Shown: positions 1 to 55,755 of the stretch, piece after piece | How the letters are laid out: the number at the start of each line of letters is the position of its first letter | How positions within the stretch are numbered: position 1 is the stretch's first letter | Assembly (NCBI GenBank): GCA_000337115.1 | Contig: AOIR01000058.1 | Location: forward strand, 103,797-159,554 | Reading direction: 5' to 3' | Source: Natrinema thermotolerans DSM 11552 | GTDB lineage: Archaea > Halobacteriota > Halobacteria > Halobacteriales > Natrialbaceae | Length of the DNA: 55,758 nucleotides | Notes under the pieces: generated by a model | The model's input: only the letters and a program-made list of their open reading frames with translations | Told to the model about the DNA's origin: nothing | The model's database searches: none | Position numbers and translations under genes: made by a program

Positions 1-7
1 CCATCAG

Positions 8-26
8 AGATGTGTATAAGAGACAG
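8..26. other. Tn5/Nextera mosaic-end adapter sequence
   Basis: The bases read AGATGTGTATAAGAGACAG, the 19-base hyperactive Tn5 mosaic end used in Nextera libraries. It is a library adapter and not genomic sequence. Genuine sequence begins at about base 27. Translating through it adds a false tail (PVSYTHL) to the gene that runs off this end. Confidence 0.97.
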
Positions 27-885
27 GAACTGCGATCGAGGTGATGACGCCGGCGAAGACGCCGGCGACGAGCGTCGGGAGCGCGGGGAAGCCATAGAGC
101 GCGAGCCCGAAGGTGACCACGAGCGGCAGGAAGACGAGGACCGAGAGGTCGTACGCGCCCGCGATCGCGGTCTGGATCTCGACGACGCGGTCGGTCGGGA
201 TCTCGCCGGCGGCCTGGAGTCCGAGAACGGCGAACCCGGCCACGGAGAGGCCAAAGGCGACGGCCGTTCCCGTTCGCATGCGACGGATGTGGTCGTACAG
301 CGGCGTGTTCGTCACGCCGGCCGCGAGGTTGGTCGTATCGGAGAGCGGGGACTGCTTGTCGCCGGCGTAGGCACCCGAGATGACCGCGCCGACGGTCATC
401 GGTGCGGGGACGCCCAGCCCCGCGCCGATTCCCACGAACGCGACCCCGAGCGTCCCGACCGTGGTCCACGAGGAGCCGATCGAGAACGCCACGACGGCCG
501 CCAATATCGCCGCGACAGGCAGGAAGACCGATGGCGTGAGCAGTTCGAGGCCGTAGTACATCATCGCCGGGATCGTTCCCGCCTCGACCCAGGTGGCGAT
601 CAGCGCGTAGATGGTAAAGATGATCAAAAGCGCCTGGATCCCCATCAGGAGGCCGTTTGCGACGCCGTCGGAGAGTTCGGGCCAGTCGTAGCCGAGATAG
701 ATGCCGAACGCGCCGACGAAGACGATACTCCACAGCAGCGGGACGTGCGGATCGAGCCCGAGGACGGCCGATCCGACCCCGAGGAAGGCGACGACTGCGA
801 AGACCGGAACGAGCGCGAGCGCGAACGACGGCCGCCGTTCGGGCGCGATGTCGTCGATCGTCGTCGGTGTGAAGTCGAATGTCAT
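27..885 (-). CDS. nhaC: NhaC-family Na+/H+ antiporter, 3' end cut by contig edge
   Basis: Integral membrane antiporter that would exchange cytoplasmic Na+ for external H+. About 286 genuine residues remain, all from the N-terminal part. They contain many hydrophobic helices and the segment GAVISGAYAGDKQSPLSDT, which strongly resembles the conserved NhaC core motif. Full-length members are around 450-500 residues, so a large C-terminal part is missing. The last apparent residues before the edge come from adapter sequence. A TATA-like box about 26 bases upstream of the ATG suggests leaderless transcription. Malate/lactate-type NhaC antiporters cannot be excluded from sequence alone. Confidence 0.85.
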
Positions 886-3847: not shown

Positions 3848-4534
3848 TTACGCTCGCAACTCCTCGTGGATCTCCCGAATCCGCTCGGTCCCCCGATCCA
3901 CGTAACCGCCGTGAAAGCACACCACGTGGTCGATCTCGCGATCGGCCAGCTGCCCGACCGATTCGGTCGCCTGCTCCATCTCCGGCGTGAAGTGGGGTTT
4001 TGGCCCGGATAGCGGCTCGTCACCGTCCGCGACGAGCGCGTCGCCGGCGATCAGCAAGTTCCCCTCGGGGAGGTACAGCGAGACGTGGCCGGGGGCGTGG
4101 CCCGGTGTCGCCACGACCTCCATCGGCCCGGCCAGCGTCGGGAACCGAACGCCATCTGCTAGTTCGATGTCGACATCGGCCGGCGGATACCGGTCGCCGT
4201 CGCCCTTGATCGGTTCGCGCTCGCCGCACACGTACGGCGCTTCCGCCCGATGGGTCGCGACGACCGCATCGACGTCTTCGAGCAAGGCCGCGAGGCCGCC
4301 GGCATGATCGCCGTCGTGGTGCGTAACCAGAATCAGCCAGACGTCCGTCAGTTCGTAGCCGAGCGACCGCAGGTGCGTTCGAATCCCCTCGCGGGCCCCC
4401 TCCGGGCCGGCGTCGATCAGGATCGGACCGCGCTCGGTCTCGACGAGCGTCGGCGTGATGGTTATCTCCCGACCGCCGTACTCCACCGTCAGCGGCAGCA
4501 CGTGGACGCCCGCGTCGCGTTCATCAGTCGCCAT
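3848..4534 (-). CDS. MBL-fold metal-dependent hydrolase
   Basis: A 228-residue metallo-beta-lactamase fold protein. The metal-binding signature THHDGDHAGG (HxHxDH class with the first His shifted by sequence) and later ATPGHAPGHVSLY and AGDALV blocks are clear. It belongs to the broad hydrolase group that includes glyoxalase II-like and lactonase enzymes; the substrate cannot be inferred. An in-frame ATG eight codons upstream (4558) is possible. I prefer 4534 because the extra residues look non-conserved. It is divergent from the terpene-synthase-like gene across a 120-base AT-rich spacer. Confidence 0.78.
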   Translation of the reverse strand: MATDERDAGVHVLPLTVEYGGREITITPTLVETERGPILIDAGPEGAREGIRTHLRSLGYELTDVWLILVTHHDGDHAGGLAALLEDVDAVVATHRAEAPYVCGEREPIKGDGDRYPPADVDIELADGVRFPTLAGPMEVVATPGHAPGHVSLYLPEGNLLIAGDALVADGDEPLSGPKPHFTPEMEQATESVGQLADREIDHVVCFHGGYVDRGTERIREIHEELRA

Positions 4535-4600
4535 GCTCGAGTCGTCGACGGCGACCACGAAAGGGCTGTTCGTCTCTCTCCACTCGGTGCAGTAAATTCT

Positions 4601-4630
4601 AATTAGTAATAATTAGCAATAAAATATTTC
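4601..4630 (+). promoter_or_regulatory. AT-rich promoter with tandem 10-base repeats
   Basis: Two near-identical 10-mers lie head to tail: TAATTAGTAA at 4601 and TAATTAGCAA at 4611. A TATA-like TAAAATATTT follows at 4621-4630. The TATA centre is about 29 bases before the ATG at 4655. The exact one-turn spacing puts both repeats on the same DNA face, directly upstream of where TFB and TBP bind, as expected for a regulator site. The AT content contrasts sharply with the surroundings. Confidence 0.55.
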
Positions 4631-4654
4631 AGACCAGAGAGACGAGTATCGACG

Positions 4655-5656
4655 ATGTCACGAGAGACGATGGCGTCCGCTCTCGAGGTCGAGTCGGATC
4701 CGTTCGCTGACGCGCTTGAACACACCCTTTCACCGGGCGTTCGGCCGTGGGCCGACGCCTACGACGAGCGGATCGGCGACCGTGACCGGTCGACGTGGTT
4801 GTGGTTCGACGCGGTCGAACCGGCGTTCCGACTGTCCTGTGTCGACGACGGGGCCGGACAGCGCGTCCACGATGCGAAGGTCCTCGCGACGATGTTCATC
4901 ACGGTCATCGACGACGTCGCCGAACGCCACGGCGACCGCGCGACCCTCGAGGAACTCCGCCTCGTGCCGTTCGACGCCCGGGCTGCCGACCCGACGCGAG
5001 CGGATGTCGACGGCGACTACGTCCGGTTCCAGCGGGAGCTCTGGGACGCGCTCTGCAAGCAGTTTCGGGCGGGCCCGCGCGCCGCCGAGTTCGAGGCCCT
5101 GTTTCGGTTCGACGTTCGACAGGCGCTCCAGTCGGTCGACTACTCGGCGCTGCTGGCCCGCCAGCCCGGCCTCGCCAGCGAGCGCGAACTCCTGACCTAC
5201 GACGTCTACAACATGATGCTCTTTCCGTTCGCCGATATCGACATCGCGAACGCGAGCGCGTTCGATCCGCGCGATCTCTCGACGCTCCGGACCGTCGTCG
5301 CTCACGGCCAGCGAATGGCACGGATCGGTAACTGGCTCGCTACCTGGGAGCGGGAACTCGCCGAAGGAGATTACAGTTCCGGCGTCACCGTCCGGGCTCT
5401 CGAGTCCGGACTCGTCTCACCCGCGGAGCTTCGGGCGCTCCGGAACGAGCCGACCGACGCGGCCGTCGCGGACGTGATCGAGCGGATCCGCGAGTCCGGT
5501 ATCGAGACCGCCTTCGTCGAACAGTGGGACCGCGAGTTCGAGACCGCGCTCGACGCCTGCGGTGACGGCGAATCGTTCGACGTACGCGCCTACCTCGAGG
5601 GGTTCGAGCCGATCTTCCGCTCGCAACTCGCCCGGCGGGCCCGGTCCGGGGAGTAG
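4655..5656 (+). CDS. Class I terpene-synthase-like protein
   Basis: A 333-residue, probably all-helical protein that fits the class I terpenoid synthase fold. Two metal-binding signatures are visible at the right separation. One is an aspartate-rich motif D86-D87-V-A-E90 within FITVIDDVAE. The other is an NSE-type triad N226, T230, E234 within IGNWLATWERELAEGD (NxxxTxxxE). In this family these bind three Mg2+ ions and the diphosphate of a prenyl substrate. R177, about 49 residues before the NSE asparagine, is a candidate pyrophosphate sensor. No C-terminal RY pair is obvious. Substrate and product cannot be predicted. It stands alone, convergent with cystathionine gamma-synthase (4-base gap). 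A non-cyclising diphosphatase of the same fold is the main alternative. Confidence 0.7.
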   Translation: MSRETMASALEVESDPFADALEHTLSPGVRPWADAYDERIGDRDRSTWLWFDAVEPAFRLSCVDDGAGQRVHDAKVLATMFITVIDDVAERHGDRATLEELRLVPFDARAADPTRADVDGDYVRFQRELWDALCKQFRAGPRAAEFEALFRFDVRQALQSVDYSALLARQPGLASERELLTYDVYNMMLFPFADIDIANASAFDPRDLSTLRTVVAHGQRMARIGNWLATWERELAEGDYSSGVTVRALESGLVSPAELRALRNEPTDAAVADVIERIRESGIETAFVEQWDREFETALDACGDGESFDVRAYLEGFEPIFRSQLARRARSGE

Positions 5657-5660
5657 ATAC

Positions 5661-6827
5661 TCAAGCGAGTGCGGCGTCGATCGCCTGCTCGAGGTCGGCG
5701 ATCAGGTCGTCGACGTGTTCGATTCCTACGGAGACGCGGATCAGGCTGTCCGAGAGGCCGGCCGCGAGCCGTTCCTCCCGCGGAATGGCGGCGTGGGTCA
5801 TCGGCGCTGGCTGTTCGATCAGGCTCTCGACGCCGCCGAGACTCTCCGCGAGCGTGAAGATCTCGGTGTTCGAGACGACCTCGCTCGCTTGCTCGAGACT
5901 CGCGTCGAGTTCGAAGCTCAGCATGCCGCCGAAGTCGTCCATCTGCTCGGCGGCGATCTCGTGGCCGGGGTGGGACTCGAGGCCGGGATAGTAGACCCGC
6001 TCGACGTCGGGGTGGTCGGCGAGCCACTCGGCGATCGCGCGGGCGTTTTCGCAGTGCCGATCCATCCGGACGGGCAGGGTCTTGGTGCCCCGGAGGACGA
6101 GGAAGGACTCGAAGGGGCCAGGCGTCGCGCCGACGGAGTTCTGGTAGAAGCCGAGTCGCTCGTCGAGTGCCTCGTCGTTGGTCAGGAGGGCGCCGCCGAC
6201 GACGTCGGAGTGGCCGCCGAGGTACTTCGTCAGGGAGTGGGAGACGATGTCGGCACCGAGATCGAGGGGCCGCTGGAGGTACGGCGTCGCGAACGTGTTG
6301 TCGATCGCACACAGCGCGTCGTGATCGTGGGCGATCTCGGCCGCCCCCTCGATGTCGACGATCGACATGAGCGGGTTCGTCGGCGTCTCGAGCCAGAGCA
6401 GTGCCGTCTCCTCTCGGAACGCCGCCTCGATCTCGTCGAGGTCGGTCATATCGACGAAGGAAAACTCGAGGTCGTAGTCCTCGTAGACCTGCGTGAAGAT
6501 GCGGTGGGTCCCGCCGTAGACGTCGTTGCCGGTGACGACGTGGTCGCCGGCCTCGAGCAGGTTCAGGACGGTGTTGATCGCGGCCATCCCGCTGGCGAAG
6601 GCCCGGCCGTACTCGGCGTTCTCGAGGCTCGCGAGGTTTTCCTCGAGATCGGTACGCGTGGGGTTCCCGGTACGGGAGTACTCGTAGCCGCGGTGGTCTC
6701 CCGGGGCGTCCTGCTTGTACGTGGAGTTCGCGTGAATCGGCGACATCAGTGCGCCCGTCTCGGGATCGGGCTCCTGACCGGCGTGGATGGATCTAGTCTC
6801 GATCCGACTGTCGTGGTCGTCGTCCAT
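5661..6827 (-). CDS. metB: Cystathionine gamma-synthase / gamma-lyase type PLP enzyme
   Basis: A 388-residue enzyme of the Cys/Met-metabolism PLP family (fold type I). It forms or cleaves cystathionine in transsulfuration, or acts as an O-acyl-homoserine sulfhydrylase. The N-terminal TRSIHAGQEPDPETGA, the cofactor-binding YSRTGNPTR and ASGMAA blocks, and the Schiff-base lysine K201 in SHSLTKYLGGHSD are all intact. Synthase, lyase and sulfhydrylase are hard to separate by sequence. I chose the ATG at 6827 because upstream in-frame residues are arginine-rich and unlike the family, and a TATA-like CATAAC lies about 33 bases before it. The two MetE genes at 14.4-16.5 kb belong to the same pathway. 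Confidence 0.88.
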   Translation of the reverse strand: MDDDHDSRIETRSIHAGQEPDPETGALMSPIHANSTYKQDAPGDHRGYEYSRTGNPTRTDLEENLASLENAEYGRAFASGMAAINTVLNLLEAGDHVVTGNDVYGGTHRIFTQVYEDYDLEFSFVDMTDLDEIEAAFREETALLWLETPTNPLMSIVDIEGAAEIAHDHDALCAIDNTFATPYLQRPLDLGADIVSHSLTKYLGGHSDVVGGALLTNDEALDERLGFYQNSVGATPGPFESFLVLRGTKTLPVRMDRHCENARAIAEWLADHPDVERVYYPGLESHPGHEIAAEQMDDFGGMLSFELDASLEQASEVVSNTEIFTLAESLGGVESLIEQPAPMTHAAIPREERLAAGLSDSLIRVSVGIEHVDDLIADLEQAIDAALA

Positions 6828-55736: not shown

Positions 55737-55755
55737 CTGTCTCTTATACACATCT
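55737..55755. other. Tn5/Nextera mosaic-end adapter sequence (reverse orientation)
   Basis: CTGTCTCTTATACACATCT is the reverse complement of the mosaic end at the left edge. It is library adapter, not genomic DNA. Genuine sequence ends at about 55736. Confidence 0.97.

Follow-up and report, generated by a model that had tools for sequence, protein, structure and literature searches.

A terpene-synthase-like gene in a haloarchaeal genome

The window, a stretch of 55,758 nucleotides from Natrinema thermotolerans DSM 11552, carries a terpene-synthase-like protein gene at positions 4655–5656 of the forward strand, which starts with ATG and encodes 333 amino acids followed by a stop codon. The assignment as a gene draws on the open reading frame listing, a match to the Pfam family PF19086 and the dN/dS ratios. 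A genome search found one copy in the source genome, and the nearest named copies are those of Natrinema thermotolerans (94%) and N. mahii (91%). dN/dS was ~0.24 against the 91% identical N. mahii copy and 0.23–0.29 against copies that are 74–75% identical; the codon-position differences, together with the ratio of ~0.24, show that the protein is under purifying selection. An earlier note, made from the letters of this stretch, had correctly located both the reading frame and its two motifs, DDVAE at residues 86–90 and NWLATWERE at residues 226–234.

Upstream lies an AT-rich region (4594–4635, forward strand) with a TATA-like element ~25–30 bp before the ATG, and an A/T-rich element stands at the same distance from the start codon in relatives, suggesting that the region is probably a leaderless promoter. 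The tract falls inside a 96-bp intergenic gap that also serves a divergent gene for a metallo-beta-lactamase-fold hydrolase (3848–4558, reverse strand; Pfam PF00753, 2.4e-26). The earlier description of a stand-alone gene with its own AT-rich promoter thus holds for the AT-rich tract, but not for the word “own”, since the promoter region is common to both genes. On the other side, a convergent gene encodes a PLP enzyme of Cys/Met metabolism (5661–6827, reverse strand; Pfam PF01053, 4.4e-157).

The metallo-beta-lactamase-fold gene adjoins the synthase-like gene in 28 loci from 5 genera, all of the same taxonomic family, and the order of the three genes is kept in many genomes of that family and hardly outside it. 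We considered both neighbours as pathway partners and set them aside: because the order is hardly kept beyond one family, we read the neighbourhood as synteny. Adjacency to the metallo-beta-lactamase-fold gene is probably no more than that, and the PLP enzyme probably belongs to primary metabolism, unrelated to the synthase-like gene. A search for a terpene gene cluster around the window gene found no adjacent prenyl synthase or tailoring genes.

An exact Nextera transposase adapter, AGATGTGTATAAGAGACAG, is present at both ends of the window (8–26 and 55737–55755). The right-hand copy marks the contig end; the left-hand copy lies inside contig C58 (at ~103804) and truncates a transporter-like open reading frame (4–885, reverse strand), so the assembly may be misjoined at the left end of the window.

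Conservation of the putative metal-binding motifs

The two candidate metal-binding elements of the protein are the aspartate-rich motif DDVAE (4910–4924, forward strand) and the NSE motif NWLATWERE (5330–5356, forward strand). They are separated by 140 residues, a distance that matches bacterial class I enzymes and agrees with the earlier remark that the spacing is typical of class I terpene synthases. Across 112 aligned haloarchaeal sequences, D86 is found in 107 and D87 in 111, and residue 90 is glutamate in 100 and aspartate in 11. The second motif is stricter still: N226 and E234 are present in all 112, as are the tryptophans W227 and W231, while residue 230 is threonine in 108 and serine in 4, and R233 is kept in 110; the family motif reads NWxxTWxRE. 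Loss of the DDxxE and NSE residues across orthologues, the outcome that the earlier note had named as speaking against its proposal, is not seen in this alignment, where both are kept.

The aligned family members are 26–76% identical to the query and keep the metal motifs throughout. DDxxE or DDxxD occurs in 72 of 75 members, the remaining 3 having NDxxD, and the family is further marked by the invariant residues R43, W50, D196, R212, W227, W231 and D239. A DDxx[DE] motif followed 130–150 residues on by NxxxS/TxxxE was found in 99 of 106 family proteins. Only 2 of 1,231 proteins encoded nearby have this pairing, and shuffling the query 20,000 times produced it 10 times, so it is not due to chance. 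In the Methanosarcina-type members L157 and L160, the DDxxE motif has neither glutamate nor aspartate at residue 90.

Profile and structure comparisons

Comparison with bacterial terpene synthases by hidden Markov models, the check that the earlier note had proposed, gave a marginal result for the window protein and a clear one for the family. Pfam PF19086 (Terpene_syn_C_2) matches residues 80–253 with 23.8 bits against a cut-off of 23.7, a clearance of only 0.1 bit, whereas 47 of the 75 family members are matched at E ≤ 0.01, the best at 5.5e-8. No NCBIfam model matches the window protein or the family. When the family was aligned by hhalign with 14 bacterial synthases, blind to the motifs, the alignment spanned 243 columns at E 0.0016, with a probability of only 16%; it nonetheless placed DDxxE over DDxxD and NWxxTWxRE over NDxxSxxKE, both in register. 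Canonical bacterial class I synthases such as pentalenene synthase (1ps1, PF19086) therefore share with the archaeal family both metal motifs in register and their spacing.

Two AlphaFold runs, each with six close sequences, returned all-helical models of low confidence (mean pLDDT 53 and 51). Foldseek searches with these low-confidence models retrieved isoprenoid or terpene synthases as the first 33 matches for one and as 49 of the first 50 for the other, at E values of at least 0.004. The Foldseek scores alone prove nothing, but the pattern is replicated and the two models agree in it. Both models were too poor to pass the fold comparison that the earlier note had named, although their matches point in the direction of its proposal. 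That this haloarchaeal gene encodes a class I terpene-synthase-like enzyme is supported by Pfam, by motif conservation and by the profile–profile alignment.

A candidate diphosphate sensor on helix H

The earlier note had also mentioned a candidate pyrophosphate-sensor arginine. At the usual bacterial site, 46 residues before the NSE motif, the window protein has Leu180 instead, but an invariant arginine does exist: Arg223 (5321–5323, forward strand), three residues before the motif, is found in 112 of 112 haloarchaeal sequences. The two groups show opposite arrangements. Among the bacterial enzymes compared, those with a recognised NSE motif have arginine at −46 in 12 of 12 cases and at −3 in none of the 12, whereas the archaeal family has it at −3 in 75 of 75 members and at −46 in 11. 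The C-terminal RY pair is likewise not conserved; the window protein has RS, and RY occurs in 11 of the 75 members in the best-matching columns.

A precedent is offered by Sat1646 and Stt4548, two actinomycete class I diterpene synthases (PDB 7e4n and 7e4m), whose diphosphate sensors, Arg220 and Arg236, respectively, lie in helix H and not in helix G (PMC9814573). Both arginines fall at −3 relative to the NSE motif, and both enzymes resemble the window protein in being single-domain and in combining a DDxxD-type motif with an NSE motif. They are also its best PDB profile match (residues 127–246, E 0.096), and the alignment with Sat1646 runs ungapped over these residues, with R223 over Arg220. 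On the strength of its invariance and of this helix-H precedent, we propose R223 as the diphosphate sensor, with R233 as a further putative diphosphate ligand. At the helix-G break, Y185-N186 (5207–5212, forward strand) align ungapped with N182-Y183 of Sat1646, and 59 of the 75 family members have HN or YN here; these two positions are proposed to act as linker and effector. The motif ND/SE of the actinomycete enzymes differs from the archaeal NWxxTWxRE, and identity to them is far too low for the substrate to be deduced from theirs.

Substrate supply and associated genes

Sat1646 and Stt4548 act on copalyl diphosphate, whereas the source genome has no match to SQHop_cyclase_N, the squalene-hopene-type N-terminal (class II cyclase) domain, and copalyl diphosphate was dropped as a candidate substrate for this reason. 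Three polyprenyl synthases score above the cut-off in the genome and could supply substrate; together with the missing squalene-hopene-type domain, they make a linear substrate likelier than copalyl diphosphate.

Cytochromes P450 are usual tailoring partners of terpene synthases. None was found in the source genome; in a divergent haloarchaeal branch (loci L097, L099 and L106, and also L084 and L056) a cytochrome P450 is encoded within ~1.2 kb of the synthase-like gene. The same P450-linked loci carry an unnamed family of ~180–200 amino acids that has no Pfam match (for example L097, 7150–7689), and they possibly represent a terpene cluster. Duplicate synthase-like copies, in tandem or nearby, occur within single genomes (L039, 5826–8208; L097, 5933–12225), a pattern often seen in specialised metabolism.

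Distribution and descent of the family

With the window protein as query, 118 of the 392 Halobacteriales genomes searched, representing 42 of 95 genera, proved to contain relatives. Profile A1, built from 75 family sequences, additionally finds members in three other Halobacteriota families, one of them Methanosarcina-type. By comparison, a PF19086 search of 61 genomes of the Methanosarcina-type family gave no match; since profile A1 finds members where PF19086 finds none, the Pfam model is too insensitive for this set. In the tree, the Methanosarcina-type sequences form a distant branch, and the haloarchaeal sequences group together with moderate support (90/92), apart from other methanogens. 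The window protein is placed with full support among sequences of its own taxonomic family, so a recent transfer is not indicated.

Viral contigs scanned with the family profile contained no relatives. A scan of genome contigs returned five close haloarchaeal relatives; a 31-residue match in a gammaproteobacterial MAG from the same scan was taken as chance. In the plasmid records checked, haloarchaeal copies are annotated “hypothetical protein”.

A separate set of synthases is found on plasmids of Actinarchaeum halophilum (L168, 5494–7841) and Halocatena marina (L169, 5467–7851), the former belonging to the hyphae-forming haloarchaea (PMC10067837). Here, bacterial-type terpene synthase sequences lie in longer open reading frames, one of them annotated as SRPBCC family, and are detected by tblastn with pentalenene synthase (E 4e-20 and 7e-16, respectively); a polyprenyl synthetase gene follows 3′ of each. 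Their hosts are haloarchaea too, but the search with the window protein does not match them. These synthases were probably acquired from bacteria, separately from the family of the window gene.

The earlier statement that terpene cyclases are poorly known in archaea needs qualifying: with 118 of 392 genomes positive the gene is no rarity, and a preprint by Samusevich et al. (bioRxiv 10.1101/2024.01.29.577750), which PMC12797696 cites by title, already reports terpene synthases and terpenoid biosynthesis in Archaea. PMC13235557 mentions archaeal synthases that were characterised in yeast. Among searchable papers we found no description of a helix-H sensor together with NWxxTWxRE in an archaeal family, the Samusevich preprint entering this comparison by its citation only. 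The class I mechanism itself is already known; the new aspect, not found described, is the combination of this sensor arrangement with NWxxTWxRE.

Proposed function

We interpret the window protein as a class I terpenoid synthase that consists of one domain and belongs to a divergent family specific to archaea, a reading that we put at a probability of roughly 0.8; though diverged from the enzymes that make terpenes, it is very probably functional. In the envisioned reaction, Mg2+ held by DDVAE and by N226, T230 and E234 would bind a linear prenyl diphosphate by its diphosphate group, while Arg223 on helix H, in place of the usual helix-G arginine, would sense and grip the diphosphate together with Arg233. 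Departure of the diphosphate would leave an allylic cation, which would then be cyclised or quenched to give a hydrocarbon or an alcohol. The likeliest substrates would be the C20 (GGPP) or C15 (FPP) diphosphates made by the genome’s own polyprenyl synthases.

The motifs and the fold class would fit equally well with a non-cyclising class I isoprenoid enzyme. It could be a prenyl diphosphate lyase or hydrolase that releases a linear olefin or alcohol, or it could transfer the prenyl group to another acceptor. Both the RY pair and the helix-G sensor are missing, and the invariant R43, R212, D196, W227, W231 and D239 could mark a different acceptor or chemistry. The second metal motif, however, being an NSE triad, is of the kind found in terpene synthases, and Sat1646 and Stt4548 cyclise their substrate despite a helix-H sensor (PMC9814573); we regard a non-cyclising enzyme as unlikely.

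The Foldseek and VIA-align matches of the poor models are mostly FPPS and GGPPS, which would suggest an isoprenyl diphosphate synthase that elongates chains, or a relative of squalene/phytoene synthases. We rejected chain elongation as highly improbable, because the protein matches neither polyprenyl_synt (PF00348) nor the squalene/phytoene synthase Pfam family, and because it lacks a second DDxxD (its only DD pairs are at residues 64 and 86), the invariant NSE triad standing in its place; the genome, moreover, already has three polyprenyl synthases.

Regulatory genes recur as immediate neighbours elsewhere, namely Bat-like (PAS-GAF-HTH; 13 loci, 8 genera), PAS kinase (10 loci, 7 genera) and FilR1-like (12 loci, 8 genera) genes, and in the Methanosarcina-type loci L157 and L160 the synthase-like gene lies 3′ of, and on the same strand as, a gene encoding a PAS-domain-like protein. 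Such surroundings could point to a catalytically retired terpene-synthase fold that serves as a sensor or regulator, but there is very little chance of this, given that a retired enzyme would not need the near-invariant metal-binding residues of the haloarchaeal sequences, that regulator genes abound in these genomes and that the window gene has no regulator neighbour; regulators beside the gene are as expected for one that is switched.

Implications for archaeal terpenoid metabolism

The isoprenoid chemistry known from archaea consists mainly of lipids, quinones and carotenoids; terpenes comprise scents, resins and similar compounds. Extending the class I terpenoid synthase reading to the whole family, we tentatively propose, at somewhat less than even odds, that the Halobacteriota have a class I terpene synthase family of their own, which is old, has been passed on mostly by vertical inheritance and is defined by the helix-H sensor and NWxxTWxRE. 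About a third of haloarchaea and some methanogens would use it to make a terpenoid that has yet to be described and that might be a membrane component, a signal or a volatile. Because the sequence signature is conserved, members of the family are readily recognised, and genetically tractable haloarchaea are available for testing the gene: CRISPR editing has been published for Natrinema gari J7-2 (PMC10433800), and N. gari JCM 14663 has an orthologue (locus L002). The family is also relevant to the question of whether archaeal class I terpene synthases are ancient or came from bacteria. A conserved synthase family in ~30% of haloarchaeal genomes would mean a widespread metabolite that has so far gone unseen.
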